Assembly: GCF_003426735.1 (NCBI RefSeq)
Contig: NZ_QVON01000001.1
Coordinates: forward strand, 868,001-932,000
DNA: 64,000 nucleotides
Source of the DNA: Arenibacter sp. P308M17
GTDB taxonomy: Bacteria; Bacteroidota; Bacteroidia; Flavobacteriales; Flavobacteriaceae
Direction of reading: 5' to 3'
Shown here: piece after piece, positions 305-28,800 of the stretch
Numbering within the stretch: position 1 is the first letter of the stretch
Layout: every line of letters begins with the position of its first letter
Notes under the pieces: model-generated
Told to the model about the DNA's origin: nothing
Databases searched by the model: none
What the model saw: only the letters and a program-made list of their open reading frames with translations
Program-made: the position numbers and the translations under genes

Positions 305-376
305 TGGCCTATGGTGTAATTGGTAACACAGCTGGTTTTGGTCCAGTCGTTCTAGGTTCGAGTCCTAGTAGGCCAA
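305..376 (+). tRNA. tRNA-Gln (anticodon TTG)
   Basis: The cloverleaf is complete. The 7-bp acceptor stem is TGGCCTA (305-311) with TAGGCCA (369-375), discriminator A376. The anticodon stem CTGG/CCAG encloses the loop TTTTGGT, giving anticodon TTG. The T arm is CTAGG-TTCGAGT-CCTAG. CCA is not encoded. It has its own promoter upstream and a strong terminator downstream. Its 3' part is the left attachment site of the island that follows, so the 3' end was probably supplied by the incoming element, keeping the tRNA intact. Confidence 0.95.
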
Positions 377-377
377 C
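356..377 (+). repeat. attL core (tRNA-Gln 3' end)
   Basis: This 22-bp direct repeat begins GTTCGAGTCC and ends AGGCCAAC. It is identical to 28779-28800. The identity starts inside the T loop/stem and ends one base after the discriminator. The base on each side differs between the two copies, so 22 bp is the full length. Confidence 0.88.
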
Positions 378-382
378 ACGGT

Positions 383-419
383 AATCCCTTGATTCTATTG
401 GAATCAAGGGATTTTTTAT
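383..419 (+). terminator. Rho-independent terminator after tRNA-Gln
   Basis: A perfect 13-bp stem (383-395 with 401-413, loop TATTG) is followed directly by a T tract. Confidence 0.9.
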
Positions 420-425
420 TTCTTG

Positions 426-448
426 GGTACAACATAGGTGCAACAAAT
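426..448 (+). repeat. Left subterminal repeat (putative integrase arm site)
   Basis: This 23-bp sequence matches 28655-28677 at 22 of 23 positions in the same orientation. Each copy contains two near-tandem units of the type AGGTACAACA. It lies 49 bp inside the left core repeat. The right copy lies 101 bp inside the right core and directly upstream of the integrase start. Placement at both ends suggests integrase or accessory-factor arm sites; binding is inferred. Confidence 0.55.
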
Positions 449-511
449 TAGGTTTTTCAAAAACTAATAGATTATTCATGGATCAAGAACAATTTCTGGG
501 TATTTTGATAT

Positions 512-718
512 TTATGCAAATAGTTGAGTTAATCTAAACAGGAAGAATTCTGTATTTCTAACACCTCTAAATTGTGCTCTGAATGCTTTTATTTTTGCAT
601 TGAACGATTCTGCCGATGCATTTGTGCTTCAGTTTGAAAAATAGTTCAGGATAGATCTATAGCTGAGCGATATCGTGTTTGCGATGGTGTTGAACGCCCT
701 AGCAAAATGTATAGGTTT
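512..718 (-). pseudogene. C-terminal relic of an ISL3-type (ISAon1-like) transposase
   Basis: Read on the minus strand, one frame gives a classic DDE transposase C-terminus: FNTIANTISLSYRSILNYF, an in-frame TGA, then STNASAESFNAKIKAF and an ending close to FFLFRLTQLFA before TAA at 512-514. The N-terminal catalytic part is missing. The DNA just beyond the stop (480-511) probably belongs to the IS end. Similar end sequence reappears outside the island at 28881-28960. Confidence 0.75.
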
Positions 719-775
719 TTAAAAATGGTCGTTCGTACTAAGAATTAAATCAAGGGACAAGGATACCTTATTTAT

Positions 776-820
776 CTGGCAGGCAAGAGGTCACCGGTTC
801 GACTCCGTTATTCTCCACCA
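776..820 (+). pseudogene. 3' half of tRNA-Ala(GGC), integration scar
   Basis: The match to a tRNA begins at the anticodon loop CTGGCAG (776-782, anticodon GGC). It continues with stem GCAAG, variable loop AGGTC, the T arm ACCGG-TTCGACT-CCGTT (one mismatch) and the acceptor side ending TTCTCCACCA. Everything 5' of the anticodon loop is absent (TTTAT instead of the complementary stem). It is followed by a terminator. A fragment that begins at the anticodon loop is what a tyrosine recombinase crossover at that sublocation leaves behind. Confidence 0.7.
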
Positions 821-831
821 GTAAATACAAT

Positions 832-2110: not shown

Positions 2111-2632
2111 ATGAAACTCCAAAAGCAATCTGAAATAGAGCAGTTATTTAATAAAAACTATCGTTTTTATTGTTTGCTTTCGTATAGTTATGTCTCTCAA
2201 TGGGATATTGCCGAAGATATTGTTCAGGATGTCTTCGTAAAAGTTTTGACGAAGAAGAACAGCACCATACTTTTAAATATCCATGCTTATCTATCGATGG
2301 CCATAAAGAACAACAGCATTAAATATATTACGCGTACTAAAAAAGTAGAAACACTTGATGAGAATTGTTTGTCCATCCCACTGCCTGAAGAGCCGTTAAT
2401 TGAAGAATCCTATAGGACTTCAATACTACAAGAGTCAATAAATAACTTACCCCTGGGATGTAAGAGTGTCTTTGAACTATGTGCATTAGACGGACACAAA
2501 TACATAACTGCCGCAGACCACTTGGGAATTTCTGTGAATACTGTAAAAACCCAGATGAAAAAGGCTTACAAAATTTTGAGGCGCGACTTAAAAAATTACT
2601 ATTTAGTTGTACTCCTCTTCCTCGAAAACTAG
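2111..2632 (+). CDS. ECF RNA polymerase sigma factor (RpoE/FecI-like)
   Basis: A 173-residue sigma-70 family protein of the small extracytoplasmic-function type used in Bacteroidota to switch on SusCD operons. Region 2 covers about residues 8-75, with the hallmark DIAEDIVQDVFVKVL. Region 4 covers about 105-160, with a helix-turn-helix around AADHLGISVNTVKTQMKKA. Length and composition are normal and the frame is open throughout. It is followed by only a stub of an anti-sigma gene. The intact anti-sigma lies 3.4 kb downstream, next to a broken copy of this sigma gene. This protein is therefore the only complete sigma in the island and presumably works with that distant anti-sigma and the SusC at 7308. 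Orientation and order (sigma, anti-sigma, SusC) are the usual ones. The assignment to the family is firm; the partner choice is inference. Confidence 0.9.
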   Translation: MKLQKQSEIEQLFNKNYRFYCLLSYSYVSQWDIAEDIVQDVFVKVLTKKNSTILLNIHAYLSMAIKNNSIKYITRTKKVETLDENCLSIPLPEEPLIEESYRTSILQESINNLPLGCKSVFELCALDGHKYITAADHLGISVNTVKTQMKKAYKILRRDLKNYYLVVLLFLEN

Positions 2633-2670
2633 ATATTTCCATCTATTTTAATTGATTTTCTTGTTATAAC

Positions 2671-2715
2671 GTCACCCTATTTCCTTATTTCGGATTCTAT
2701 TATTAGGCCGTCATA
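2671..2715 (+). promoter_or_regulatory. Conserved sigma/anti-sigma intergenic motif (copy 1)
   Basis: This copy begins GTCACCCTATTT, continues TTATTTCGG, and ends near CCGTCATA. The same block precedes each of the three anti-sigma starts in this island (2671, 3028 and 5922), although the flanking genes have decayed differently. A promoter for the anti-sigma/SusC transcript or a translational control element would explain the conservation; this is inferred. Confidence 0.45.
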
Positions 2716-2746
2716 ATATTTAACCTGGCAACCCAAAAGAAAAACA

Positions 2747-2938
2747 ATGGAAATAGGCCACATACTTGTAAAGAAGCTTGATGGAACACTTTCTGTTGAA
2801 GAACAGAAATTTTTTGATAATTGGATCCAAGAATCTGATGATCACAGATTTATGTTTTTGCGTTTAAAGATATTTTACAATAATGGTCACAACATTTCAA
2901 AAATGGATTCTCCCATTATAAAAAAATACCGTTCATAA
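2747..2938 (+). pseudogene. Truncated anti-sigma factor (FecR-type), N-terminal stub
   Basis: The 63 codons start MEIGHILVKKLDGTLSVEEQ and align with the first part of the intact anti-sigma at 5998 (MQIALIIVKKLNGTLSITEQ, then FDNWIQESD). The frame ends right after NISKMDS, before the transmembrane segment and the FecR domain. Only the cytoplasmic sigma-binding piece could be made. It might still bind sigma as a soluble fragment, but the simplest reading is a broken gene. It lies 114 bp after the intact sigma gene. Confidence 0.8.
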
Positions 2939-3027
2939 ATATAATTCAAAAATTATAGCGCCATAACTAATTAATCCCTCTCCTTATAAAACAGATTCCC
3001 ATATTTATTTATTTTTTTTAATTAATC

Positions 3028-3072
3028 GTCACCCTATGCCATTTTTTTGGTTCTTAATAGTAAGAGGCAAAT
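3028..3072 (+). promoter_or_regulatory. Conserved intergenic motif (copy 2, decayed)
   Basis: This copy begins GTCACCCTAT like the other two and keeps TTTTTTGG and a GAGGCAAATA end. It precedes another anti-sigma start codon by about 30 bp. No sigma gene is attached to this copy. Confidence 0.35.
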
Positions 3073-3101
3073 AATTTGGCCCCAAATACAATAGAATGAA
3101 T

Positions 3102-3175
3102 ATGGAAATTACCCATATGCTTGTTAAAAAATTAAAGGGAACTTCTCTTCTGAAGCGAAAATTTTTCCCTTTAAT
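3102..3175 (+). pseudogene. Second anti-sigma N-terminal relic
   Basis: ATG at 3102 is followed by MEITHMLVKKLKGTSLL, clearly the anti-sigma N-terminus again. A frameshift after the GT codons (the SSEAK continuation is in the next frame) and immediate loss of similarity show decay. It is the third copy of this gene start in the island. Confidence 0.65.
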
Positions 3176-3193
3176 TTTTTTCAATTTCTTAGT

Positions 3194-3442
3194 TAATATA
3201 TGGTAGTTATAAATCGGATTTTGAAGGTGAAAAAACGGTAGATCTAATAAGCCGTAGTTTATACAAAACACTTAATAGCACTTACAGATTTGGTAATAAC
3301 ATTCTTTTGATGACAACCTTTGATGCCCTTAACCCAGCCTCTGAAATTTTGGATGATAGGAAATTAATCGAACCAGGTATTTTAGAAGGCAGTATCGATT
3401 TAAATCCCACGCCTATTTACATACCTATATTGGCACAAAGTT
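3194..3442 (+). pseudogene. C-terminal fragment of an unrecognised protein
   Basis: An open frame without a start codon reads from about 3194 to TAA at 3440-3442. It includes SYKSDFEGEKTVDLISR and later NPASEILDDRKLIEPGILEG, ending IYIPILAQS. The composition looks like real protein, and it sits between anti-sigma relics and the NagX-like gene. I do not recognise the family. It could be the tail of a secreted enzyme or SusCD-associated protein from the lost copy of the locus. Confidence 0.4.
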
Positions 3443-3966: not shown

Positions 3967-5088
3967 ATGAGGCTAATGAATTCTCGACTTAATTCCTTGG
4001 ATTTTTTCCGTGGAGCGACGGTGATTGCAATGATTATTGCCAATGACCCGGGTAGTAGCAAATTCCGATACCAACAATTATCTCATGCTGCTTGGGAAGG
4101 ATGTACTGTAACAGATCTGATTTTTCCATTATTCCTTTTTATAGTTGGGATTTCAATATCACTCTCATTTAATAAGGCCATTACCAAAGGTAAAACAAAA
4201 AAAGACTTACTACTAAAATCCTTTAAACGGGGGACGATTATTTTTATATTGGGGGTATTATTAAATTTGTTCCCAGGATTTGATTTCACATCTTTAAGAA
4301 TACCTGGTGTACTTCAACGAATCGCGTTGGTTTATGTATTTTGTTCCGTAATCTATTTATATGTCGGCCCAAAAAGTCAATATATTTGGTTTATATCACT
4401 TCTAATAGGTTATTATATTATCATGTCTTTCGTCCCAGTACCGGGGATAGGTCCGCCAAATTTGGATCCAACAAATAACTTTTCTGCATGGTTCGACAGG
4501 CTAATTCTCAATGGGAATATTGGCCCTATGGGAAGGGGGTTGTATGATTCAACAGGAATTTTTACTACAATTCCAGCAATAGCCTCAGGCCTTTCTGGCA
4601 TTTTCATTGGACGCCTACTTAATTCAAATAAAATGCACAATGAGGTGAAATTAATATGGATGTTTATTATAGGATGTACACTATTAATAATCGGATGGAT
4701 TTGGAGTTTTGATTTTCCAATGATAAAACGACTTTGGACGTCATCTTACGTATTACATACTTCTGGTGTGGCTATTCTATTTTTTACAACTTCATATTGG
4801 TTTATTGATGTTTTAAAGTTAAAGAAAGGGATCAAGCCAGTATTAGCCTTTGGTTCAAATGCCCTTGCAGCATATTTTCTGGCCAGCGTTTTTGGAAAAT
4901 GTACATCTGCAAAAATTCTCAATGATAATAATTCATTCTATAGTATTAAGGATTGGATATATATAAATATCTTAACAAAAATATTTAATCCTTATAATGC
5001 TTCCTTCGCCTACTCCATTTTAAGTTTATCAATAATATTTATTCTTGTATGGTGGCTTTATAAACGGAATATTATAATTAAAGTTTAA
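3967..5088 (+). CDS. NagX-like acetyltransferase family membrane protein (DUF5009/HGSNAT-like)
   Basis: A 373-residue inner-membrane protein with about ten hydrophobic segments. The N-terminus carries the family hallmark LDFFRGATVIAMIIANDPGS followed by HAAWEGCTVTDLIFPLFLF, which includes the conserved His and the Asp-Leu-hydrophobic stretch. The family is related to heparan-alpha-glucosaminide N-acetyltransferase and the bacterial NagX proteins of N-acetylglucosamine pathways, which are thought to move acetyl groups on amino sugars across or at the membrane. Two closely spaced ATGs exist (3967 and 3976); either gives the full domain. It is flanked by broken regulators on both sides, so it may be a survivor of the older copy of the locus. 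Its presence hints that the substrate contains an amino or N-acetyl sugar; that is inference. Confidence 0.8.
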   Translation: MRLMNSRLNSLDFFRGATVIAMIIANDPGSSKFRYQQLSHAAWEGCTVTDLIFPLFLFIVGISISLSFNKAITKGKTKKDLLLKSFKRGTIIFILGVLLNLFPGFDFTSLRIPGVLQRIALVYVFCSVIYLYVGPKSQYIWFISLLIGYYIIMSFVPVPGIGPPNLDPTNNFSAWFDRLILNGNIGPMGRGLYDSTGIFTTIPAIASGLSGIFIGRLLNSNKMHNEVKLIWMFIIGCTLLIIGWIWSFDFPMIKRLWTSSYVLHTSGVAILFFTTSYWFIDVLKLKKGIKPVLAFGSNALAAYFLASVFGKCTSAKILNDNNSFYSIKDWIYINILTKIFNPYNASFAYSILSLSIIFILVWWLYKRNIIIKV

Positions 5089-5997: not shown

Positions 5998-7179
5998 ATG
6001 CAAATTGCCCTAATTATTGTTAAAAAATTAAATGGAACACTCTCAATTACAGAACAGAAGTGTTTTGATAATTGGATTCAAGAATCTGATGAGAATAAAT
6101 TCCTATTTTCACGACTACATACATTGCACAATAATGGACACAATATTTCCAAAGTTGATGACATAAACATTGAATCGGCATGGAACAATGTATTGAGCAA
6201 TGTTAAAGTAAACGAAAATAAAAGTATTAGATCCAAACTTGCCCAAATTTGTAAATACGCCGCCATTTTTATTGGACTTTTTATTACAGCTTTCCTATAC
6301 TGGCAAACTACAATTCCCCTATCGCAACAACTTATCCTTGACGATTCAATAACTTTGGAATTAGAAAATGGCGAAATCCAGCAGATATCTACAGAAAACA
6401 TTCAAACCATTACCAATAACAAAGGGAAAGTTCTTGGTGTACAAAATGGAATTCAAATTAATTACTTTGATAATTCCGACATAGATAAACTCACCTATAA
6501 TGTTTTAAAAGTTCCCCATGGAAAAACATTTAAACTAATCCTTTCAGACAGCACCATAGTCTATTTAAATGCGGGGTCATCTTTGAAATATCCTGTAAAA
6601 TTTATTAAAGATCAAAACCGACAGGTTTTCTTGACGGGCGAAGCCTACTTTGATGTTAACAAGGATAAAGCACATGCTTTTATAGTCACGAATGGCACTA
6701 TGGATGTAAGAGTTCTAGGAACAAAATTCAATATTTCGGCTTATCCTGAAGACCAAGAAATAAACACCGTTTTGGTTGAAGGTTCTGTTAGTCTTTACAA
6801 CAATGAGAACGATTATAATACCCAAACATCCAATCTATTAAAGCCAAATCACAAAGCTTCATGGAACCGAACAAATGATAATGTTATCATAGAAACCGTA
6901 GATACGGATATATATACTAGTTGGATCGCTGGCAAACTGGTAATAAAGAAAATGCCTTTCAAAAATATAATACAAAAACTGCAGCGCCATTATAAGGTTA
7001 CCATAAACAACAATTACGAACAGTTGGATAACCAAATTTTCACAGCAAATTTTGACACGGAATCTATTGAGGATGTACTATCAACCTTTATCTTGGAAAC
7101 CCATTTTGAGTACTCCATAAAAGACAATACTATTGAAATCTATAAACCAACAAAATTTAATACAACGCCTATGGAATAA
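5998..7179 (+). CDS. Anti-sigma factor, FecR/DUF4974 type
   Basis: A 393-residue membrane-spanning regulator. Residues 1-80 form the cytoplasmic sigma-binding part. A single transmembrane helix follows (about 86-102, YAAIFIGLFITAFLYW). The periplasmic FecR domain covers about 165-270, with VPHGKTFKLILSDSTIVYLN, and a DUF4974 domain ends the protein (about 320-390). The family holds an ECF sigma at the membrane until the STN domain of the partner SusC reports substrate. The next gene is exactly such a SusC. Its adjacent sigma (5391-5862) is dead, so the only available partner in the window is the sigma at 2111. Length is typical and the frame is intact. Confidence 0.9.
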   Translation: MQIALIIVKKLNGTLSITEQKCFDNWIQESDENKFLFSRLHTLHNNGHNISKVDDINIESAWNNVLSNVKVNENKSIRSKLAQICKYAAIFIGLFITAFLYWQTTIPLSQQLILDDSITLELENGEIQQISTENIQTITNNKGKVLGVQNGIQINYFDNSDIDKLTYNVLKVPHGKTFKLILSDSTIVYLNAGSSLKYPVKFIKDQNRQVFLTGEAYFDVNKDKAHAFIVTNGTMDVRVLGTKFNISAYPEDQEINTVLVEGSVSLYNNENDYNTQTSNLLKPNHKASWNRTNDNVIIETVDTDIYTSWIAGKLVIKKMPFKNIIQKLQRHYKVTINNNYEQLDNQIFTANFDTESIEDVLSTFILETHFEYSIKDNTIEIYKPTKFNTTPME

Positions 7180-7307: not shown

Positions 7308-10300
7308 ATGGAAAAAAATAATAGGGTAGGCTATACTAGGCCTTATTCGTTCAATCTTAGTTTAGCCATGAAACTAACGACAATCCTTTTAATTCTTTCA
7401 ATTTTTACCGTACAGGCCAATTCCTATGCGCAAAAAGCCAAGGTCACCTTAGATCTGCGACAAGTGAAAATGTATAAGGTATTTGAGGAAATAGAATCGC
7501 TTACAGATTTCAAATTTTTATATGACAATACAAAAATTGATACAGCGGAACTAGTTTCTATAAAGGCAAGCAACATGCCAGTATCCGAAGTTCTCAATAT
7601 TTTGTTCAAGAATACTTCAATCTATTATGTGGTTAGAAAGAAACAAATTGTACTTAAATCACAAAAAGCTACACTTCCAGCTCCAATCAAAGAAGAGAGT
7701 GAAGTTATTGAAGAGGAAAAATTTGTTCAAAATATCATTTCTGGAACCATAACCGATGATATAGGACAACCCTTGCCTGGAGCGAATGTAGTAGAAAAAG
7801 GAACCACTAATGGCGTTACCGCCGATTTTGATGGTAATTTCTCAATTACCCTTACCAATGAATCTCCAATATTGATTATTTCGTACGTCGGTTTTTCAAC
7901 AAAAGAAATACTGGTTAGTGGTTTAACAAACCTAGAAATAATATTACAGGAAGACGCTGCAGGGCTGGAAGAAGTAGTAGTGGTCGGGTATGGTACCCAG
8001 AAAAAGGCAACTCTCACCGGTGCAGTTGTTGCTGTTAAAGGAGAAGAATTGGAGAAAATCCCAACGAACAATCTTTCCAATACCTTGGTTGGTAGAACGC
8101 CTGGGGTAATTGGACTAAATCGAAGTGGACAACCTGGTGATAACGGTTCGCAACTCTTTATTCGAGGGACAAGTACGTTAGGAGTTAATGGTCCATTGTT
8201 CGTTATTGATGGTGTCCCAGGAAGAGAGGGTTTTGATCAAATAGATCCACGTGATATTCAAAGTATATCTGTTTTGAAAGATGCCTCGGCCGCTATATAT
8301 GGAGCTAGGGCAGCTAATGGTGTAATATTGGTTACTACGAAAAGGGGGGCAATTGGAAAACCACAAGTGAGTTTTACTTATAATCAAGGGATTGTTGAGC
8401 CAACCCGACTTCCTGATTATGCAAATTCAGCAGCATTGGCCGAATTTCAAAACGAACAGCTTTCACTAAGTGGACAGCCTCTGAAATTTACTCCTGAAGA
8501 AATCGAGAAATTTCGTAATCAAAGTGACCCAATTAATTATCCAGATACGGATTGGATTGAATCTACTATGAAGGATTTTAGTATTCAAAGTCGACAAAGT
8601 CTTTCAATTCGTGGAGGTTCGGATTTTGTAAAATACTATTTGGCTAGTAATTTCTCCACAGAGGAAGGAATGTTCAAAAATGGAATCACAAATTCAAAAT
8701 CGTTTGGAGTTCGGTCAAACATTGATGTTAACTTAACAGATAATATTAAATTATCACTTGATTTATCATTTCAAGAAAAAAACAATCATTATCCTGCCAA
8801 AGAATTTGAATACATTGTACAACAAACGTATAGAAATTATCCTTATTTAATTGATTACTACCCAAATGGGCTTCCCGGGCCTGGATATATAGAAAATCAG
8901 AATCCACGAGTTATGGTTACAGGTGATCAAGGTTATAGAGATGGCACATATAATCTGTATCAAACCAAATTCAACTATGACATCAAAATTCCAGCGGTTC
9001 AGGGATTAGGTGTTGATGGATTTATTTCTTATGACAAGAATCAAAACACAACTAAGGTGTTTGAAAAGCCATCTTATGTTTACCAGTTTGATTCGAATAC
9101 GGATGAATACACCAAATTGTTAGCTGGACAGATTACATCTCCACAATTATCTCAAGGCTACGAGTTTGATTCCCCATTCATTATTAATGCGAGACTTAAA
9201 TATGAAAGGTCGTTTGGAAATCACAACATTAATACTTTTGCTGCTTATGAACAAGGCAAGTATAAATCTAACTACTTTTCGGCATTCAGACAAGATTTTG
9301 TGTCTCCTGAAATAGATGAGTTATTTGCAGGTGGCGGGGCCAATCAAAGGACTGATGGAGGTGCGGCAGAATATACTCGAAGAAATTATTTTGGACGAGC
9401 CTCTTACCAATTTAAGGAGCGATACCTCGTGGATGTAAATCTTCGCTATGATGGTTCTTCAGTCTTTCCTAAAGATAATCGATGGGGGTTCTTTCCTGGA
9501 ATATCAGCAGGTTGGAGACTTTCGGAGGAACCATTTTTCAAAAACTCCGTCGATTTTGTAAGCAATTTAAAGCTTCGGGGCTCATGGGGGAAAATGGGCA
9601 ATGATGCCATATTACCATTCCAATATTTAGCACTTTATTCTTTTACTCCCGGTTATATTTTTGGTGAGTCAAACCAGTTAAATACAGGTCTTACCCAGGG
9701 GGTTGAAGCCAACCCTTACATTACTTGGGAAGTAGCCAAAACAACAAACCTTGGGTTTGATATGGGGCTTTGGGACAACTCATTTAGCCTAACATTTGAA
9801 CTTTTCAAAAGTGTAAGAAGCAACATTCTTACACAAAGAAATGCATCCATTCCGGTCTATACTGGACTGAGGCTACCACTCGAGAATATTGGAGAAGTGG
9901 AGAACAAAGGTTTTGAGCTGTCATTAAATTATAATAGTTCTAATGGCGAAAATAGTCTGAATTACTATATTGGTGGTAACGTTTCGTATGCAGATAATAC
10001 AGTTTTAAATATTGACGAGCCAGCTACAGTTGTAGACTGGCAGAGATCAACCGGTCGTTCAATGAATACAGGATTGTACTATGACGCTATAGGTATTTAC
10101 AGGGAACAGTCAGAAATTGACAATTCACCTCATCCCTCAGGCACGATTGTAGGTGATTTACAATATAGGGATGTGGATAATAATGGCGAAATTGATGCTA
10201 ATGATAGAATTCGTCCTAATAAAACTAATATCCCCGAATACACTTACGGTGTTAACTTTGGATTACAATATAAAAATTGGAGCTTAGATGCTTTACTTCA

Positions 10301-19792: not shown

Positions 19793-21019
19793 ATGAAAGC
19801 ATTGATAAAATTGGACTACATGTCTATTTCAATAGTGTTTATTGCACTAACAAGCCTGTTTTTCGGATGTAAATCCATTAAAAAGGCGGATTACCCCGAC
19901 CCAATAACAAATCCAACCTCTAAATTGATGTTACAAGGGGATTGGCTCCAGGACCCGCATGAAATAGATTTTAATACAATCCCTAAAATCCCTGTGGAGC
20001 ATTCAGTGGTAAGCGATGTTACCCCGGATGGAGTAAACCAACATAATTATTTGGCCTTCTATGACAATCGATATTGGATCATGTGGAGCGATGGTCCCGG
20101 AGTTGAAGATAGAGTAGGACAGGTTGTTAAATATTCGACCAGCACAGATGGCCTACACTGGGATGACCCAAAATTCCTTACCACTTATCCTGAAGGATCA
20201 GGCCCGGAGTCGCCCAATTACAATAAAAGAACGGAACAAGGCCTCAGATGGATTTCAAGAGGGTTTTGGGAATATAAAGGTGAATTTCTTGCGCTAGCCT
20301 CTTTGGACGAGGCAAAAGGCTTTTTTGGTCCGTCATTGGTCCTACATGCTTTTATATGGGACAAGGAAACCCAAAGTTGGGAACACCATGGAATAGTAAA
20401 GGATAATGCAATCAATAATTTTCCTCCAAAGCAATTACCATCAGGAGAATGGTTAATGTCCCGTAGGTCTTATGATTATGTCGAAAAAGGGGTCGATTTT
20501 ATGGTGGGTGCAGAAGATAATTTCGACCAATGGGAAGTCTACCCTGTTTTTGGCACAAATACGGAACTGGATGCCGAAGAACCCTATTGGTGGATACTAC
20601 CGGACAATAAAAACTTGATGGCACTATTTCGGGACAATCGCAAAAGTGGGTACTTGTACCGCTCCTTTTCAACAGACAATGGTCGGAACTGGAGTCCACC
20701 TGTGCAAACCAACTTTCCCGATGCCCGATCCAAATTTCACGGCATCCGACTTAAGAATGGAAAATATGTTCTAGTCTCCAATTCGAATTATAAAAAAAGG
20801 GACCCTTTAACCTTGGCCATTAGTGATGATGGTTTGGTATTTTCCAAAATGGGCTATTTGGTAGGAGGAAGACACATAGATTACCCTCATGTGTTGGAGC
20901 ATAATGGATATTTATTGGTGGCCTTCGCTGGGGATGCCAAACAAAAAATAGAAGTCTTAAAAATTAAAATTTCGGATTTAGACCTATTAGATATGTCCGA
21001 TTATAATCCAAAGCAATAG
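19793..21019 (+). CDS. Surface lipoprotein with sialidase-fold propeller
   Basis: 408 residues from ATG 19793, chosen because it gives a lipoprotein signal (SIVFIALTSLFFGC, acylated Cys at residue 26); the frame extends upstream but without a leader. The mature part is a propeller: HNYLAFYDNRYWIMWSDGPG, VGQVVKYSTSTDGLHWDDP, FSTDNGRNWSPP and LAISDDGLVFSKMG are blade motifs. This is a different subfamily from the other three propeller proteins. Lipid anchoring, probably at the outer surface, fits a first-contact exo-enzyme. The following symporter starts 83 bp later. A decayed copy of its 3' end lies at 1590-1720, so this gene was duplicated with part of the locus. Enzymatic activity is unproven. 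Confidence 0.75.
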   Translation: MKALIKLDYMSISIVFIALTSLFFGCKSIKKADYPDPITNPTSKLMLQGDWLQDPHEIDFNTIPKIPVEHSVVSDVTPDGVNQHNYLAFYDNRYWIMWSDGPGVEDRVGQVVKYSTSTDGLHWDDPKFLTTYPEGSGPESPNYNKRTEQGLRWISRGFWEYKGEFLALASLDEAKGFFGPSLVLHAFIWDKETQSWEHHGIVKDNAINNFPPKQLPSGEWLMSRRSYDYVEKGVDFMVGAEDNFDQWEVYPVFGTNTELDAEEPYWWILPDNKNLMALFRDNRKSGYLYRSFSTDNGRNWSPPVQTNFPDARSKFHGIRLKNGKYVLVSNSNYKKRDPLTLAISDDGLVFSKMGYLVGGRHIDYPHVLEHNGYLLVAFAGDAKQKIEVLKIKISDLDLLDMSDYNPKQ

Positions 21020-21102: not shown

Positions 21103-22635
21103 ATGGACGTCTCTGTACGAACCGCGGATATTATTACGATTCTCCTCTATCTACTAGGGCTAATGGGGGTTGGTATATATTTTTCAAAAAGAAACAAGAC
21201 CACAGAAGATTATTTTTTGGGAAGCAGATCTTTCTCAGGCTGGGTTTTAGGGCTTTCCATGCTTGGAACAATTGTCAGTTCAGCTACTTTTTTGGCCCTT
21301 CCCGCTGCCGCCTACATATTGGACTGGCGACAGTTAACCATAAGTTTAGCGGTACCTTTTGTTACCGTACTTGCCGTTTTGATATTTATCCCCTTTTTTC
21401 GTCGCGGAAAACTCGTTTCTGCCTTTGAGTACTTAGGGGAAAGATATGGCAAGGTACCTAGAATCTATGGCACGGTGAGTTTTATTATCCTACAGCTCAT
21501 AAGAATGGCTCAAATTCTATTTTTGGTGTCGCTGGTCATTCAATTTTTAACAGGAGCTCCTATAAGTATAGTCATAATCGGAACAGGAATATTCATAGGA
21601 ATATATACTATTTTGGGAGGTTTTGAAGCTGTCATTTGGACCGATGTTGTGCAGGCTATAATATTAATTGTGGGGGGAATCCTTTGTTGTGTTTGGGTGG
21701 TAATGGATCTGCCCGGAGGGTTAGAACAAATTTTTGAGGTCGGTTCAGCTAATAATAAATTTAGTTTGGGTGAAATGGATTTTGATTTGGGCAGGCGTAC
21801 ATTTTACACCGTAGCAATTTTAGGGGTTATCAATTGGTTGGGCATCTATGCCGGGGATCAAAATATGGTACAGCGCTACGCTTCGGCAAAATCTACCCGT
21901 GAAGCCAAAAAAGCAACTATAGTGTATTCAGCAATTGCAGTTCCAATGTGGATTATGTTCTTTTTTATAGGCACGGCCCTTTTCGTGTACTACCAGGAAT
22001 TTCCCAATACGTTAATAAACAGCCTCGAAGCAGACCAGATTCTTCCCTATTTTATACTTTCCGAGATTCCTCCGGTGATTACAGGGATAGTTATTTCGGC
22101 CGTTATTGCCGCCGCCATGAGTACGATGGATTCTGGTATAAACTCGATATCAACAGTCACTGTTATCGATTTGATGAAGCCTTGGTTGAGCAAAGGAAAA
22201 TCTGATCGGTTCTACTTAAAATCAGCTCATATAATCGCATGTACCGTAACGGTTTTAGTCATTTCCGGAGCCGTTGTTTTCAGCATTATGGAAAAAGAAA
22301 GTATGAATGATATTAGTTTGATGGTCGCCAGCATATTTGGGGGTTGTCTTATGGCCTTGTTTATGATGGGTTTTTTTACCAAACGTATTGATGGTTTCTC
22401 TGCCACTGTAGCCTTGGGTGTCGCCGTCGCTTTAAACATCTACCTCGGATTGGGGGCACTCGGAGTTTTGCCGGATTCCATTACAATTCCCATACATAGT
22501 TATTGGGTAGGCGCTATGGTCAACGGCACATTCATGATCGTGGCCTATGCAATAAGTATGTTTAGAAAAAACAATTTTAATGATCTATCAGGACTTACCG
22601 TTTGGACAATGAAGAAAATTAATAAAAATGAATAA
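21103..22635 (+). CDS. Sodium:solute symporter (SSS/SLC5 family)
   Basis: A 510-residue inner-membrane protein with about 13 hydrophobic helices. The SSF hallmarks are present: RNKTTEDYFLGSRSFSGW (about residues 30-47), GLSMLGTIVSSATFLALPA, and AAAMSTMDSGINSISTV (about 339-355), which includes the sodium-site region. The family imports sugars, sialic acids, proline or other small solutes with sodium. In this operon it is the only inner-membrane transporter, so it should carry the monosaccharide or sugar acid released outside to the cytoplasmic enzymes. Sialic-acid transporters of this family exist, but specificity cannot be read here. Confidence 0.9.
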   Translation: MDVSVRTADIITILLYLLGLMGVGIYFSKRNKTTEDYFLGSRSFSGWVLGLSMLGTIVSSATFLALPAAAYILDWRQLTISLAVPFVTVLAVLIFIPFFRRGKLVSAFEYLGERYGKVPRIYGTVSFIILQLIRMAQILFLVSLVIQFLTGAPISIVIIGTGIFIGIYTILGGFEAVIWTDVVQAIILIVGGILCCVWVVMDLPGGLEQIFEVGSANNKFSLGEMDFDLGRRTFYTVAILGVINWLGIYAGDQNMVQRYASAKSTREAKKATIVYSAIAVPMWIMFFFIGTALFVYYQEFPNTLINSLEADQILPYFILSEIPPVITGIVISAVIAAAMSTMDSGINSISTVTVIDLMKPWLSKGKSDRFYLKSAHIIACTVTVLVISGAVVFSIMEKESMNDISLMVASIFGGCLMALFMMGFFTKRIDGFSATVALGVAVALNIYLGLGALGVLPDSITIPIHSYWVGAMVNGTFMIVAYAISMFRKNNFNDLSGLTVWTMKKINKNE

Positions 22636-22672: not shown

Positions 22673-24241
22673 ATGACATTGGACAAAGAAGAACAATTTG
22701 AGATAATTATAATGGGAGGAACCCCGGGAGGTATTGCCACAGCAATAACTGCTGCAAGATTAGGACACGAAGTAGCATTGATTGAACCACATGACCATAT
22801 TGGGGGTATGACAGCCAGCGGTTTGGGCAAAAGCGATGTAGAACAGAAGGAATTTATAGGGGGACTATTTAAAGAGTTTACGCAAAATGTTTTTGAATTT
22901 TATAAAAATAAATACGGTCCAAACTCCAAGGATGTAAAGCTTTGCCGTGAAGGATATTATTTTGAACCTTCCGTTGCGGAGAACATACTAATGGAAATGT
23001 TAAAGGAAACAGGCAAAATAACAATTTTCAAGGGGCATGTACTTAAAGAGACCTTGGTTGAAGAAAATAAACTAACAAGCATTATTACTATACAAAAATC
23101 TACAAATGAACCGAAGCAGTTGGATGGAAGTATTTTTGTAGATGCTACATATGAGGGTGATCTTTATGCCGCGGCTGGAGCGGAATACTCCCTAGGGCGG
23201 GAAGGCAAGGATGAATATAAGGAGCCGCATGCTGGAGTAATCTATTTTGATTATGACAAGGGGGTATTTCTTCCGGGCAGTACGGGGGCTGCAGATGATG
23301 GTCTGCCAGCGTACACTTACCGTTATTGCATGACCACTGACATCCATAACAGTAGGATTTTAGAGAAAGAACCTGATAATTACAACCGTAATATATATAC
23401 GCCATATTTTGATGATCTAAAATCAGGAAGATTAAGTGCACCTACAACTTTCCATGAAGGTTGGGGATACTATCCGGAACATTTTGATACTATGGTTAGG
23501 GCATTGTCAATAACCGATCTTCCAAATTCAAAAGTTGATGGCAACACCAACCCTAGACCATTGGCCTTTCCCTTTCCTGAAGAAAACAAAGGCTATATAG
23601 AAGGAAATATAGAAACACGAAATCGCATTTGTGATAGGCATAGGGACATTGCTTTAGGCCTTATTTGGTTCTTACAAAACGATACCGAAATATCGGAGGA
23701 ACACAGAAAAATGGCCCGAAAGTACAATCTCCCATTAGACGAATTCACAGATAACAACAATTTTCCCTTTCAATTATATGTAAGGGAAGGTCGCAGGTTG
23801 AAGGGTGAATATACCATCACTGAACACGATGTGGCAATTACGGAAAATACACCTGAATTTTTTTCCCACCGCGATACTATTGCCATGGGTGAATTTCCAA
23901 TAGATAGTTTCCCAGTACATAAAATACCCAGTAAGGACAATATTGTTCTTGAGGGATATTTGGGAATGTTAGCCCATTTAACCCGCCCTTACGAAATTCC
24001 GTATCGGGCCATGATTCCAAAAAAAATTGACGGTCTAATTGTTCCCGTTGCCCTATCTGCAACACATGTTGCATTTTGTTCCATTAGAATGGAGCCTACC
24101 TGGATGTCCCTAGGGCAAGCTGCAGGAGTAGCTGCCCATGTATGCCTTAAAAACAATGAAACGCCAAGAAATGTGAAAATTTCTGAAGTCAGGAATATAT
24201 TAAAAAAACAAGGTCAAGTATTAAAAAATGAATTGGTTTAA
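22673..24241 (+). CDS. FAD-dependent oxidoreductase (FAD_oxidored family)
   Basis: A 522-residue protein without a signal peptide, so cytoplasmic. The N-terminal Rossmann dinucleotide-binding motif is IIIMGGTPGGIATAITAARL (about residues 11-30), followed by the acidic end of strand 2 (IEPHDHIGG). A second FAD motif, IFVDATYEGDLYAAAGAEYS, covers about 149-168. A C-terminal FAD-contact region lies around SLGQAAGVAAHVC (about 476-488). The family is widespread in polysaccharide loci and often poorly annotated; oxidation of a sugar, or of a sugar acid before aldolase cleavage, is plausible. It lies 37 bp after the symporter and 95 bp before the aldolase. Confidence 0.8.
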   Translation: MTLDKEEQFEIIIMGGTPGGIATAITAARLGHEVALIEPHDHIGGMTASGLGKSDVEQKEFIGGLFKEFTQNVFEFYKNKYGPNSKDVKLCREGYYFEPSVAENILMEMLKETGKITIFKGHVLKETLVEENKLTSIITIQKSTNEPKQLDGSIFVDATYEGDLYAAAGAEYSLGREGKDEYKEPHAGVIYFDYDKGVFLPGSTGAADDGLPAYTYRYCMTTDIHNSRILEKEPDNYNRNIYTPYFDDLKSGRLSAPTTFHEGWGYYPEHFDTMVRALSITDLPNSKVDGNTNPRPLAFPFPEENKGYIEGNIETRNRICDRHRDIALGLIWFLQNDTEISEEHRKMARKYNLPLDEFTDNNNFPFQLYVREGRRLKGEYTITEHDVAITENTPEFFSHRDTIAMGEFPIDSFPVHKIPSKDNIVLEGYLGMLAHLTRPYEIPYRAMIPKKIDGLIVPVALSATHVAFCSIRMEPTWMSLGQAAGVAAHVCLKNNETPRNVKISEVRNILKKQGQVLKNELV

Positions 24242-24336: not shown

Positions 24337-25281
24337 ATGGAACAAAAACTAAAAGGAATTATACCTCCATTAATAACCCCTTTAACAGAGGAATACAATT
24401 TGGATGTACCAGCGGTACACAGATTAACTGAACATTTAATACAAGGCGGAGTACATGGCCTATTTATCTTGGGAACTACTGGCGAGGCCACCGGCCTCAA
24501 GTACGATGTAAGACAGAAGATGATAATCGAAACATGTTTGGCTTCAAAGGATAAAATACCGATAATGGTCGGCATCACAGATACATCACTCGGAGAAAGC
24601 CTTAAACTAGCCAATTTAGCAAAAGAACACGGAGCAATGGCAGTTGTAGCAGCACCGCCCTACTATTTTAATTTGGGTCAACAAGAATTGCTAGAGTATT
24701 ACGAAGATTTGGCGAACAATCTGCCACTGCCCCTATATCTATATAATATGCCCGGATTAACAAAGGTGCATATTAATACCGATACTGCTATTGTGCTTTC
24801 TAAACACCCAAATATTATTGGGTTAAAGGATAGCTCTGCCAACACCGTCTACTTTCAATCACTAATTCATGGAATTGAAAGAGAAGATTTTGGATTGTTT
24901 GTAGGACCAGAAGAAATTACAGCCGAAACGGTACTTATGGGTGGCGATGGTGGTGTTAATGGTGGGGCCAACTTGTTTCCCCGCTTATATGTTGAACTTT
25001 ATCAGGCTTCTCTAAACAAAGATTTTCAAAGAATGGCTCAGTTACAAAGCCAAGTTATGGAAGTGGCCAGAATGCTTTACAATGTTGGTAAATATGGTTC
25101 AAGTTATCTAAAGGGTTTAAAGGGAGCAGCTTCGTTATTAGGTTTGTGCCGCCCATATCTTGCCCCGCCTCTCAAACAATTCAAACATTTGGAAATGGAA
25201 ATAATTGGGAAAAATTTAAAAGCAATCCAAACTAATATTGAAGAAATAGGGTTATCAAGTTTTACAAAGCAATATAAATAA
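24337..25281 (+). CDS. Dihydrodipicolinate synthase/N-acetylneuraminate lyase family aldolase
   Basis: A 314-residue class I aldolase of the DapA/NanA superfamily with a TIM barrel. The GxxGE-type pyruvate-binding loop is GTTGEATGL (about residues 47-55). The catalytic tyrosine is Tyr136 in YNMPG, and the Schiff-base lysine is Lys164 in IGLKDSS. The family joins or splits pyruvate and an aldehyde: sialic acid lyase, 2-keto-3-deoxygluconate aldolase, dihydrodipicolinate synthase and others. Context (symporter, sialidase-fold enzymes, no lysine genes) argues for a catabolic sugar-acid aldolase rather than DapA. Family membership is firm, substrate is not. Confidence 0.85.
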   Translation: MEQKLKGIIPPLITPLTEEYNLDVPAVHRLTEHLIQGGVHGLFILGTTGEATGLKYDVRQKMIIETCLASKDKIPIMVGITDTSLGESLKLANLAKEHGAMAVVAAPPYYFNLGQQELLEYYEDLANNLPLPLYLYNMPGLTKVHINTDTAIVLSKHPNIIGLKDSSANTVYFQSLIHGIEREDFGLFVGPEEITAETVLMGGDGGVNGGANLFPRLYVELYQASLNKDFQRMAQLQSQVMEVARMLYNVGKYGSSYLKGLKGAASLLGLCRPYLAPPLKQFKHLEMEIIGKNLKAIQTNIEEIGLSSFTKQYK

Positions 25282-25370: not shown

Positions 25371-25667
25371 TAAATACTTGTCATTCATTATTTCATCTTA
25401 TTGTTAAATAATAGGTATTTAAAACCCATTAATTAAGTACGTGGAATGACTTACTTATAAAAAAGAATGAATGTTGTTTTTGTGAAATCATAATAAGGTA
25501 GGGGAAGTCGCGGTTCTGTAAGGGTAATGAAGTGCAACGCAAAAAAGTGGTAATGTGCTGAACGCAACATGAAAAGGGATTATTCGCTCGAGGTAGGAGC
25601 TAAAGCACATTTATTTCCCTTTAGTTTTTCTCACGGTTTGAAATTAGGATACAACCAGTTCATTGGC

Positions 25668-26064
25668 CTAGTCCAACACTGTATTTGTAAAGCTTTTCAA
25701 ATAAATTTCTGTTGTACGTAAAAAATTGTGGGCTAATCCTTCACTCATGATTTCAGTGGGTATCCCAATGAACTTGGCGATGGTGGCCTGGGAATGACGG
25801 ATAGTATAAGTAGTAAATGCCTCCCCTATACGCGCATCATCGGCGATGATTTTAAGGTAACCGTTCATTCTTCTTCGTAAGGATTTGTATTTTTCATAAC
25901 TCTTTGTACTTCCATCATAATTCGCAGGGAATAAGTAATCATATCCCGTTTTGTACTAGATATAGAAACCTAAAATTTTTCCAAGCTCATCCGTAATACG
26001 AACAGAGAGCTGGTCTCCCGTTTTACTCCTTCCATAGAATATACTGTGCCGCGCAAAAGTCCAA
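25668..26064 (-). pseudogene. Decayed tyrosine recombinase (C-terminal part)
   Basis: On the minus strand one frame reads from SPWTFARHSIFYGRSKTGDQ through ELGKILGFYI, an in-frame TAG, KTGYDYLFPANYDG, and finally TYTIRHSQATIAKFIGIPTE, GLAHNFLRTTEIYL and a normal end. The catalytic-domain boxes with Arg-His and the final Tyr are visible. The in-frame stop and the lost N-terminal half make it a pseudogene. It differs clearly from the intact integrase at 27395, so it came with another element. Confidence 0.8.
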
Positions 26065-26196
26065 GGGGAGAAAACCTTTTTTTATCTTTTTCTCCCTAAC
26101 CACATCCATTTTTATCCGTTGAAATGTTCAATTACCTTCAGGTTGCACTTGGAACGGTTAATTATAATAAATAATATATGGATTGCTACGGTCACG

Positions 26197-26262
26197 ATAT
26201 ATGAATATATTTAAATATGCAAATATAAATATATGGAAATATGTATATAGGTAAATATGATT
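26197..26262. repeat. AT-rich run of ATATATG/AAATATG-like heptamers
   Basis: Seven-base units of the type AAATATG and ATATATG recur imperfectly through this stretch, which has almost no G or C beyond the unit's last base. It could be a low-complexity relic or a protein-binding AT tract near the old integrase; nothing more can be said. Confidence 0.4.
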
Positions 26263-26999
26263 TACGTAATCTGATGGTTTTATTGTTTTAAAATAGGAAC
26301 AAATCCGACCCGCCCGTTTTGAGAAAAAACCATTAATAAAATTCTATAAATATTAATCTTCGGAGAAGATAGCAAGTTATGTTTTAAGCATCTTAAAACT
26401 ACTACTACTAGCGAAGTGAAAACCCTGCCTACGGCTGGAGGCTGATATATATAGAAGGAGAAAATAGTAAATTAAACAGAAATTTTTAAAGAAATCAGGA
26501 CCACGGTCGGGACAATTTTGAAAATCTCTGGCCCAGGTATTTGATAGAGAGAGGGCAATATAAGAAGGTAGCCTATCTGTTAGTGTTAGAAAAGTTAATG
26601 CTCGATTTTCCTTTATTGTAATAAGATCATCAAATGGAAAACAGATTAAAGGAAAGCTAATATACCGTTTCCAAAAAAAAAGACCGATGCCGAACAGACC
26701 TATTTCCTTCGCCATGGTATTTATTACAGGGCAATCTGTTTGGAAGTAAATATACCAAGGAGGAGGCGGATTTTTAACAGGTTTACGGCTAAACTGACCA
26801 ATCACTCCAAGTACTAGGGTAAGTGACTTTCGGTTTAGGGTTTTGATACAGTGATCGCTTATAGAATCTGGCTCTCAATGGCTGATTTTTTTTAATAGGG
26901 GAAAGAAGAAAATGGTTAATGTCCCGTCTCCTCTTATACAGATAAATCCCGACAAAATTTAGAAGAAATCTATTATTACATGCTTTAGTGCCAAACTTA
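26263..26999. other. No supported gene
   Basis: Frames of up to 142 codons exist on the minus strand but have no recognisable motifs, a biased composition and no start context. Treated as eroded island DNA between integrase relics. Confidence 0.4.
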
Positions 27000-27262
27000 A
27001 ATTTCCAATCTTTCGTGATATTCATCTATTATATGCGTAGGGAGATTTTTAATATATATTTCAGTTGTACTGACATCACTTGTCCGAGCATTTTGCTCAG
27101 AGCATTTATTGGAACATTATTGAGAATTAGGTTTGTTCCCATGGAATGACGACTCACATAACTAGTTAAATTTTCTTCAATTTCAAAAAGTTGAGCAATC
27201 TCTTTTAGACGTTTGTTATATCGCTTTCTTGCACATCTCTACCGGGTGCTTTTTTATAGATA
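27000..27262 (-). pseudogene. Second decayed tyrosine recombinase relic
   Basis: The minus strand reads RYNKRLKEIAQLFEIEENLT, SYVSRHSMGTNLILNNVPIN, ALSKMLGQ, then a frameshift, and in the next frame DVSTTEIYIKNLPTHIIDEY. These are the Arg-His box and the catalytic Tyr box of a phage-type integrase C-terminus. The upstream domains are missing. It is the third integrase-derived sequence within 3 kb. Confidence 0.75.
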
Positions 27263-27394
27263 GGGAGAAGAAATAATTTTTTTTGATTTCCATAATTCAA
27301 TGCCACTAATACGACTGTAAAATGACGATGTGAAACTACTGGCAATTACTGTGATTGTTTAAGGCCAAAAAAGTTGGGATAGACAAGCAATAAA

Positions 27395-28618
27395 TCAAAA
27401 ATTTATCACCGCATCCAAAGCCTCATCAGCTTCTTTATGGATAAAATTAGCTTGGTAGTTTATAGTCGTTTTTAAATCACTGTGTCGATAGAGCTTTTGT
27501 AACATTAACGGATGAATCTTATCTCCTGCAATATTGCCAAACGAATGACGCGCAATGTGCATAGTTAATTTTTTGCTGATCTCGGCCTTTACAGCGATTT
27601 TCTTTAAATGTTTATTGAATTTTAAGGTGGCATTTTTAGTGCTTCGCAACATTCGGTCCGCATTATTATGATCAATACCTCTTAATTCTGGAAAGATATA
27701 CTCATTCGTGCCAAGATCAGAGTCAGCGTATAGGTTAATAATATTATGGAGCTTGTCTGATATTTTTAATGAGATTACCTTACTGTTTTTGTTCATCTGA
27801 TAAAAGAGACGACCCTCATGAATATCGGTCCATTTTATTTTTAAAACATCAGCAATACGCATTCCTGCCAAGTAAAAGCTGAATAACCAAACATTCCGTG
27901 CATGATTTTGCGGGGCATGAACTGAAAGGTTAAGATTTTCAATACGGGAAATTTCTTCACTGGTTAGACCTATTTTGACAGATTGTGGTATTTTAATTTT
28001 AATCTTGCCCTTTTCGGAGCCAAAAGGATAAAATTCAGGTTTCACCAGTTTTTCCTGTATAGCTCTATTGTATAACGTGCGAATAAACATTAGAACATTG
28101 GCAATACTTCTATCACCAAGTGTGCCCAGGGCTCTCAAATAACTCTGTAGACCTCGAAGAAAGGGAACAGTTATCTGGTCAAAACTTAATGATTTACCTC
28201 CCATATAATCTTTGATGCGATTGAGTAGGGGGCGTTCACTATCGATACGGGATAATTTTTTGCTTTCTTTCAATTGCTTAAAGTGTTTTTCAGCGTAATC
28301 AAAAAAGGAATGTACAGTTAGCGTTGTAGTTAATTGTGATTTCAATTCTTGAACGGAAAAATGGTCACCATCTTTTGCAGCCGTATCCAATAAAATGGCA
28401 TTGGCCTCCGCCTGCTTAATTGCAATTAGATTGTTTAAACGTGCAGAATTAGGGTGTGATTTTTTAACTTTTTGTTTTGTTACGTCCCAAAATTTGGGAT
28501 CAAGATATTGACCTGTGTAGAGAAAAGTTGATTTTCTATCCTTAGTGACTCGAACTGCGATTGGAAAAAGTCCTTGTTTATTACTTTTTTTTCTTAATAT
28601 AGTGTTGATTGTTGCCAT
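27395..28618 (-). CDS. Tyrosine recombinase/integrase of the island
   Basis: 407 residues when started at ATG 28618 (MATINTILRKKSNKQG), the usual start of this Bacteroidota integrase family; a frame ten codons longer exists but adds an unlikely leader. The arm-binding domain is at about 1-85, the SAM-like core-binding domain at about 100-195 and the catalytic domain at about 215-400. Catalytic residues are visible: Arg in LAGMRIADVLKIKW, Lys in the NKNSKVISLK strand, His-x-x-Arg in MHIARHSFGN, His in LYRHSDLKTT and Tyr in INYQANF. It reads inwards from the right end, with its start 161 bp from the right core repeat. It is intact and is the obvious enzyme for integration at tRNA-Gln. Confidence 0.92.
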   Translation of the reverse strand: MATINTILRKKSNKQGLFPIAVRVTKDRKSTFLYTGQYLDPKFWDVTKQKVKKSHPNSARLNNLIAIKQAEANAILLDTAAKDGDHFSVQELKSQLTTTLTVHSFFDYAEKHFKQLKESKKLSRIDSERPLLNRIKDYMGGKSLSFDQITVPFLRGLQSYLRALGTLGDRSIANVLMFIRTLYNRAIQEKLVKPEFYPFGSEKGKIKIKIPQSVKIGLTSEEISRIENLNLSVHAPQNHARNVWLFSFYLAGMRIADVLKIKWTDIHEGRLFYQMNKNSKVISLKISDKLHNIINLYADSDLGTNEYIFPELRGIDHNNADRMLRSTKNATLKFNKHLKKIAVKAEISKKLTMHIARHSFGNIAGDKIHPLMLQKLYRHSDLKTTINYQANFIHKEADEALDAVINF

Positions 28619-28654
28619 TTTTTTCGAACATATGTAGTAAAGATACAAAATTCA

Positions 28655-28677
28655 GGTACAACATAGGTACAACAAAT
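28655..28677 (+). repeat. Right subterminal repeat (putative arm site/integrase promoter region)
   Basis: It matches 426-448 at 22 of 23 positions and contains two tandem units close to AGGTACAACA. It lies 37 bp upstream of the integrase start, so a protein bound here could affect both recombination and integrase expression. This is inferred from position. Confidence 0.55.
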
Positions 28678-28778
28678 GATGGTTTTTCTTGGTTTCTTGT
28701 GGTCTTATGTGATTTTTGGCATAGGTTAAAGTACATATTTTCAGTTAAATAGAAACATTTAAGTTTAAAAGTATATAA

Positions 28779-28800
28779 GTTCGAGTCCTAGTAGGCCAAC
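28779..28800 (+). repeat. attR core (partial tRNA-Gln 3' end)
   Basis: An exact 22-bp copy of 356-377. It has no tRNA 5' part in front, but a terminator follows, as expected if this is the original chromosomal 3' end displaced by the island. Confidence 0.88.

Follow-up and report, generated by a model that had tools for sequence, protein, structure and literature searches.

The Bacteroides elements NBU1 and NBU2 use tRNA targets. Accretion and decayed elements at shared attachment (att) sites are described in PMC5704250, and PMC11389934 describes iOriT elements, which are integrative elements with an origin of transfer (oriT) but without a relaxase. In gut Bacteroidetes, 47 loci with SusC and SusD lie on mobile elements (PMC6907783), and for the 10K island of Riemerella anatipestifer both integration and excision were shown experimentally (PMC6764341). 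Here we describe an island at positions 356-28800 of a 64,000-nucleotide stretch of Arenibacter sp. P308M17 (G000:C1:868001-932000), which we call the window. The island sits at a tRNA-Gln gene, encodes the tyrosine integrase Int1 and carries a polysaccharide utilization locus (PUL). We consider it probable that it is a mosaic, trans-mobilizable integrated island of the iOriT type with a glycan locus. Comparisons within the genus use 18 Arenibacter genomes, namely this one (G000) and 17 others, among them A. hampyeongensis (G005), A. catalasegens (G006) and Arenibacter sp. F20364 (G017).

The tRNA-Gln attachment site and integrase Int1

ARAGORN calls a single tRNA in the window, tRNA-Gln(TTG) (305-377, plus strand), a gene present in 18/18 genus genomes that is the attachment gene and is kept whole by the element. 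Its 3' end is the left copy of a 22-bp repeat (attL core, 356-377, plus strand), and an exact copy lies at 28779-28800 (attR core, plus strand). The sequence-only reading had named these identical ends and had seen the left one complete the tRNA, and both points hold to the base. At up to three mismatches the window holds no third match, and 0/100 shuffles gave two. Besides this pair, recurring 22-mers on the plus strand are confined to a BNR-gene fragment (1661/20930) and to a short tandem tract (29136-29170), and none arose in 20 shuffles. On these results we reject a chance origin of the repeat.

We aligned the joined flanks of the window with the tRNA-Gln gene and downstream DNA of nine relatives. 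The flank match runs on through the sequence that starts at 28801 in G013, G014 and G002, and is absent or loose in the other six. What had been suspected to be the displaced native terminator beyond the right copy (28801-28853, plus strand, outside the element; fold z -3.6) is thus found directly 3' of tRNA-Gln in three relatives, and these are the empty sites that had been proposed as a check. The distance from tRNA-Gln to nusA is measurable in the 12/18 genomes that have both on the same contig (6/18 have them on different contigs). It is 777-874 bp in four (G013, G014, G009 and G012) and 2.7-35.5 kb in the other eight, the window with its 33.9 kb among them, so that this interval also serves as a hot spot for insertions in general. 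In G009 and G012 (L086, L087), a tandem duplicate tRNA-Gln stands at the same place, with starts 206-207 bp apart and no island.

Int1, cognate to tRNA-Gln, is encoded by an open frame (27395-28618, minus strand) that starts 160 nt inside the right repeat copy and contains Arm-DNA-bind_5, SAM-like and Phage_integrase domains, as expected from the earlier claim of an intact tyrosine recombinase just inside the right end. Its R..K..H-x-x-R..H..Y residues occupy columns that are invariant across 8 aligned sequences; a PDB search with Int1 gave no match. Among the best 80 of 218 Int1 relatives in named genomes, the exact 22 bp lies 160-173 nt ahead of the integrase start in 5/5 close homologues (87-96% identity), which come from three Arenibacter, Kriegella aquimaris and Pseudozobellia sp. 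WGM2 and hence from three genera. With up to two mismatches, the 22 bp is absent from the examined loci of the 75 remaining homologues of that set (47-53% identity). Within the genus, an isolated copy of the tRNA-Gln 3' end is present in 4/18 genomes (G000, G005, G006 and G017), and the same four carry an integrase 90-100% identical to Int1, the next best in the genus being 55%. The pairing of integrase and site is specific and spans three genera. Border repeats, a cognate intact integrase and an empty site in relatives are all present, as in a tRNA-integrating tyrosine-integrase island; the empty sites and the integrase-repeat link (5/5 vs 0/75) support the original view of a genomic island at tRNA-Gln with its cognate integrase. 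We regard integration by Int1 at tRNA-Gln as almost certain on sequence grounds.

The left end of the element (378-450, plus strand) consists of a terminator hairpin for the tRNA (fold z -6.6) followed by the arm-type repeat GGTACAACATA at 426, a motif shared with the region upstream of the integrase, where arm-type repeats GGTACAACATAGGTACAACA occupy 28655-28680 (plus strand). In the window, GGTACAACATA occurs at 426 and 28655 only, once close to either end, and its copies are presumably integrase arm sites. The left-end hairpin substitutes for the displaced terminator behind the tRNA. Positions 383-701 are 73-74% identical to the left ends of G006 and G017. For the right end (27246-28800), identity is 91% with G005 as well as with G006 and 83% with G017, and the same module also occurs in Kriegella and Pseudozobellia (82-83%). 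A C-terminal remnant of an insertion sequence (IS) transposase, presumably of the ISAon1 family, was recognised as a frame (512-628, minus strand) that recurs in related left ends. On these comparisons, the 3' end of the tRNA-Gln gene provides the 22-bp core that Int1 recombines, with the incoming end restoring the tRNA and supplying a new terminator while the old one is displaced to 28801. On excision, the tRNA-Gln gene would stay intact and the released 28.4-kb circle would carry a single 22-bp copy. By eye, the DNA beyond attR in G005, G006 and Kriegella resembles the left end of a further such element, which suggests tandem insertion at tRNA-Gln in these genomes.

Outside the 22-bp repeats, a separate variable segment of 4.75 kb (about 28867-33622, minus strand), recognised by domains and comparison, encodes a response regulator and a MASE11/GAF/PAS kinase. 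It separates the displaced terminator from rimP, and G013 and G014 are without it. The conserved chromosomal flank rimP-nusA follows (33721-35548, plus strand; domains, genus comparison). A 71% DNA match to the segment over 658 nt is found in G030, from a different genus of the same family. At 29136-29190, TATCTATGGAG units form a short tandem tract, and the region that holds it is also repeated at other places in this genome and in the genus.

Relaxase remnant, oriT-like site and mosaic structure

Upstream of mobC and relaxase genes in related loci lies a conserved block formed by two hairpins of variable sequence and constant shape and a third short stem. A short sequence motif detected it 28 times in 32 loci, 24 of these copies being distinct. 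Model R1, built from 24 other copies, recovers a single match in the 64 kb, at 26349-26425 (plus strand; 73.4 bits, E 2.3e-15). Across the 24 distinct copies and the window, 99.1% of cells are paired and changes on both sides are seen in 40 cells; 0/500 shuffles reach the observed pairing, both-side changes or covariation score, and slid structures are 32-45% paired. The inner three pairs of hairpin 1, read per sequence, form in 25/25. The window copy keeps hairpins 1 and 2 intact, and its stem 3 has one mispaired position at a pair that forms in nearly every copy. By its position and modelled structure we recognise this region as oriT-like.

By tblastn we identified the C-terminal remnant of a MobA/VirD2-type relaxase (26505-26835, plus strand; about residues 652-760). 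Among 15 relaxases compared, that of G013 matches it best (47%, E 2.6e-18). The remaining relaxase sequence and mobC were not found in the window, and we reject a canonical integrative and mobilizable element (IME) with its own relaxase, given the reduction to these residues. In G006, G017 and Pseudozobellia, and also in G005, where the end of the contig cuts it, a MobA/VirD2-type relaxase gene adjoins the Int1-type integrase inward; the Kriegella contig stops before that position could be judged, and G017 encodes a NikA-like mobC product slightly under the Pfam cut-off. Integrase and att sites are thus accompanied by an oriT-like site, recognised by structure and position, without a relaxase, as in iOriT elements. 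Since the oriT-like site is kept and the own relaxase is lost, the island probably borrows the transfer machinery of another element.

By alignment the island is a mosaic, in which parts of at least three integrase systems are combined. Near its left end lies the 3' half of tRNA-Ala(GGC) (776-820, plus strand), a relic att site of another island that matches the G017:C103 attR at 97.7% over 43 nt and has no second window copy at up to three mismatches. Near the right end are C-terminal remnants of two further integrase types, Int3 (25644-26042, minus strand; 86% to an integrase at G000:C20:557161) and Int2 (26942-27238, minus strand; 82-95% to Int2 of G005, G006, G007, G010 and G017, where these relatives adjoin a relaxase-less oriT). 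Positions 26091-27238 are collinear with G017:C103 at 88% identity, a stretch that includes the oriT-like site, the shared loss of the relaxase and the Int2 end. This match assigns both oriT-like site and relaxase remnant to an Int2-type island, and we reject the idea that they are native to the tRNA-Gln element. Between G000 and G017 the dead relaxase remnant is 86.7% identical, although the four-fold sites of nusA differ at 56/136 (0.41). The relaxase-less module therefore probably moved between species after the relaxase was lost, and appears from these values to have spread by conjugation or another route. At about 27240 the outer tRNA-Gln integrase module meets the right end of an Int2-type island without a relaxase, a kind of island that has tRNA-Ala(GGC) as its site elsewhere; the glycan locus lies between. 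In the simplest order, a PUL-bearing relaxase-less island of the tRNA-Ala type would have been fused into, or overgrown by, a tRNA-Gln element.

Using model R1 across the genus, we found at least 58 oriT-like sites in 15/18 genomes, a lower bound because 150 of 2244-3306 first-look candidates were scored per genome. Relaxases were matched with one relaxase as query, and 'no match' refers to that query. Forty-one of the 58 sites lie 32-428 nt ahead of an open relaxase frame (three such frames match just 602-637 residues), seven stand beside a broken or partial relaxase (the window included; one at a contig end), and ten, three of them at contig ends, have no relaxase match. With two relaxase types compared against the seven of these ten sites that lie away from contig ends, six gave no match and G006:C7 gave short N-terminal pieces.

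A shared layout, with the oriT-like site 307-318 nt from an Int2-type integrase, is present at four of these six sites, G005:C12, G006:C43, G007:C22 and G010:C18; G017:C103 has the Int2 layout also, with a relaxase remnant between site and Int2. The tRNA 3' end ahead of Int2 is that of tRNA-Ala(GGC) in G017, its letters matching an ARAGORN-called tRNA-Ala; judged by eye, it is tRNA-Arg-like in G005, G006 and G007 and tRNA-Val-like in G010. Among the four Int2 islands, the spacers (305-316 nt) share 86-90% identity, while nusA of the same genome pairs differs by 0.31-0.52 at four-fold sites; Int2 four-fold values involving G007 (n=3) were excluded as out of register, with 7 sites each. Relaxase-less copies at different tRNA ends thus diverge less than their hosts, indicating that relaxase loss did not stop the spread of the lineage.

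An enrichment of SusC/SusD beside relaxase-less oriT-like sites was not established: up to 9 kb on the body side, they occur at at least 1/9 relaxase-less vs at least 0/20 relaxase-bearing sites (20 of 41 sampled). Up to 17.9 kb, SusC/SusD lie beside at least 3/9 relaxase-less sites, one of them as a weak fragment, with no matching control. The counts are lower bounds because the tblastn scan missed a SusD-like_2 gene. SusC genes near the G005:C12 and G006:C7 sites were rejected as cargo, being on the far side of the integrase and outside the islands. Beside the relaxase-less site at G007:C22 (L367:1415-17419) lie SusD, SusC, sulfatase, FecR and a glucuronyl-esterase-like gene; the one at G005:C12 (L363:1551-17884) adjoins GH20 and GH5 genes, the SusD-like_2 gene missed by the scan and a gene for a hybrid two-component regulator. 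We tentatively propose a genus-wide class of relaxase-less, oriT-bearing islands that ride resident integrative and conjugative elements (ICEs) or IMEs, have interchangeable tRNA integrases (Gln, Ala and apparently Arg and Val) and repeatedly carry glycan loci. If this is true, marine Flavobacteriaceae exchange sugar niches via hitchhiking islands that have no transfer genes of their own.

A candidate helper in trans is at hand in the same genome. G000 has one full-length relaxase of the remnant's family, at C12:28758 (46%); its other relaxase matches are three distant ones (21-22%) and two fragments, at C25 and in the window. An oriT-like site lies 404 nt upstream of the C12 relaxase, with a hairpin 2 identical to that of the window. 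Among 10 proteins scanned in the C12 stretch, TraG is above cut-off and there are also TraN, TraK, TraJ and MobB matches, so that relaxase, oriT-like site and ICE-type transfer genes stand together there; TraG-type ATPases are above cut-off in 18/18 genomes. In this view, a MobB-type relaxase acting in trans would nick the oriT-like site of the island, and the type IV secretion system of a resident ICE such as the one at G000:C12 would export the DNA. Directly after the C12 relaxase (L329:11215-12300) stands a gene for a Fic-type adenylyltransferase, below the family cut-off.

The glycan cargo

The cargo, all on the plus strand, begins with an extracytoplasmic function (ECF) sigma factor (2111-2632; Sigma70 r2/r4 and sigma70-ECF matches). 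Domain matches identify a NagX/HGSNAT-like acyltransferase (3967-5088; NagX below cut-off), a FecR-type anti-sigma factor (5998-7179), a SusC-type TonB receptor with an STN domain (7308-10694), a SusD-type lipoprotein (10705-12348), a GH67 N-domain protein (12452-14923; best other match in the 18 genus genomes 43%), a sialidase-like BNR_2 protein (14935-16251; weak PDB similarity to sialidases) and an RraA-like aldolase (16282-17034). Three more BNR_2 proteins follow, at 17075-18268 (the resident loci of G004, G005, G006 and G015 have relatives at 67-69%), at 18165-19466 (start uncertain, overlapping the preceding frame) and at 19754-21019 (BNR4). The set ends with an SSF sodium:solute symporter (21103-22635; 96% to G005, 94% to G004), an FAD-dependent oxidoreductase (FADox, 22673-24241; 95% to G005) and an aldolase of the DHDPS/N-acetylneuraminate-lyase type (24337-25281; 83% to G015).

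Adjacent SusC and SusD stand together with a regulator and enzymes, as in a PUL, and the sigma/FecR, SusC/D, enzyme and transporter genes agree with the previous description of the cargo as a sensing-import-degradation locus. It is plausible that the cargo is gained as one functional unit; judged from the domains, a recipient would acquire genes to sense, import and break down a glycan. Clues to the substrate are the sialidase-like, SSF and aldolase domains; PDB matches are weak or generic, and a PDB search gave none for the GH67N-like protein or BNR4. The domains suggest that the substrate is possibly a glycan with sialic- or other ulosonic-acid-type sugars.

Several cargo genes occur elsewhere in G004, G005, G006 and G015, in a variable segment of a resident locus with an L-fucose isomerase and a LacI regulator. 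The resident L-fucose-type locus of G000 is without the 12-kb segment of G005, with about 119 bp between the flanks (G000:C1:306828-306947, L268); the BNR gene that stands between L-fucose isomerase and the gene after it is missing there as well. In a four-fold-site comparison made without the FucP and SDR rows (wrong strand), divergence from G005 is 0.22 for SSF, 0.31 for FADox and 0.24 for Int1, and 0.44-0.58 for five resident and three core genes; from G004 it is 0.29 for SSF and 0.33 for FADox, and 0.52-0.66 for four resident genes and nusA. The island SusC is 67-87% identical to G015:C4:536705-540034 over its N-terminal 240 residues and 19-48% over the remainder, and the neighbouring sigma and FecR genes are 74-80% identical to G015. 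From this alignment, the signalling part of SusC looks kept and the barrel exchanged. Left of the sigma gene, positions 1589-1722 hold a fragment matching the end of BNR4 and its relatives, including a 26-nt exact repeat (1661/20930).

Alternative explanations and known systems

It is scarcely credible that the PUL is ancestral here and the repeat a chance match or a duplicated tRNA end. Tandem tRNA-Gln duplication does occur, in G009 and G012, but we found no support for this explanation: relatives have tRNA-Gln adjoining rimP-nusA, the repeat and the integrase co-occur 5/5, and in other Arenibacter the searched cargo genes lie elsewhere or have just distant relatives. The empty sites would be compatible with it only if every one of them arose by secondary deletion. 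An accretion of two elements, a small tRNA-Gln remnant with Int1 and a separate PUL-bearing island of the tRNA-Ala type that Int1 never moved, is possible if rather doubtful. The tRNA-Ala 3' half, the Int2 and Int3 remnants in the right end and the element-like left ends seen by eye beyond attR in G005, G006 and Kriegella would all fit it. Against this, only the tRNA-Gln repeats pair around the whole block, the tRNA-Ala half being single at up to three mismatches, and, since Int2 and Int3 are fragments, no intact recombinase other than Int1 was recognised in the island. We consider it unlikely that this is an ordinary integrase-type island, now immobile, with a dead mobilization region, an oriT-like relic that has not yet decayed and an integrase that may or may not work. 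The missing mobC, the loss of most of the relaxase, the decay of two integrases and the IS, and the mispaired position in the oriT-like site all speak for immobility; hairpins 1 and 2 are intact, however, and in other species relaxase-less copies of the module stand beside the 3' ends of different tRNAs and have diverged less than their hosts.

Several observations weigh against our preferred reading, a mosaic island mobilized in trans. Two of five structure measures, pairs with double change and further pair types, are no higher than in shuffles, and the oriT-like site of the window may be impaired by the stem 3 mispair. The TraN, TraK, TraJ and MobB matches of the C12 stretch are below curated cut-offs. 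Excision and transfer of the island are deduced from sequence, and no excisionase was identified. The age argument from the relaxase remnant relies on one gene (nusA, 136 sites), sets all sites of dead DNA against four-fold sites, and fits conjugation and other routes alike; the decayed integrases, relaxase and IS amount to continuing decay. The 17 other genus genomes contain no close copy of the GH67N-like gene, so transfer of the whole island is without an example among them. At four-fold sites BNR4 (0.57) and BNR2 (0.74) show no greater closeness to G005 than resident genes do, and the cargo is therefore not one block from the G005 lineage; with SSF and FADox close and these two not, parts of it moved between Arenibacter lineages, not all together. 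On balance, we hold the trans-mobilizable nature of the island to be moderately probable.

In our judgement, the movement of glycan loci among marine Bacteroidota has mostly been deduced from gene comparisons. Here transfer is directly testable, because attachment site, integrase, probable transfer origin, lost relaxase and candidate helper are named in one genome, and the structure model is a way to find islands that seem immobile for want of a relaxase. A literature search without subscription papers and preprints found neither polysaccharide utilization together with oriT and relaxase, nor polysaccharide utilization loci together with the term integrative and mobilizable. For Flavobacteriaceae, polysaccharide utilization in combination with tRNA, integrase and genomic island led to one paper, a Tenacibaculum description, and among the 10 of 667 matches listed for Arenibacter and mobile elements none names Arenibacter.

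Four described systems come closest. The island integrates in the manner of the NBU1/NBU2-type IMEs of Bacteroides (PMC5704250), with which it shares the phylum Bacteroidota, a tyrosine integrase, a MobP-type mobilization region, in the island with an oriT-like site, and a presumed dependence on an ICE with a Bacteroidota-type mating pore, but NBUs have their own relaxase, whereas the island has a remnant, a tRNA-Gln target and a glycan locus. The Riemerella 10K island (PMC6764341) likewise has an integrase with an IntN1-like domain, a tRNA-associated site and direct repeats; it differs in its tRNA-Arg target, 53-bp repeat and 10-kb length, and its text does not use the word polysaccharide. 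The PUL-bearing gut elements (PMC6907783) share a SusC/SusD locus on an integrated mobile element, whereas the island lies in marine Flavobacteriaceae, has a tRNA-Gln site resolved to the base and is relaxase-less. Like iOriT elements (PMC11389934), the island combines an integrase and att sites with an oriT-like site while lacking a relaxase, would need the relaxase of a resident ICE or IME, and fits the reductive-evolution model of that work. It differs in that its mobilization is deduced and in that it retains part of the lost relaxase, which makes the loss directly readable. What is new here in comparison with these systems is the relaxase-less, oriT-retaining build together with a named candidate helper.

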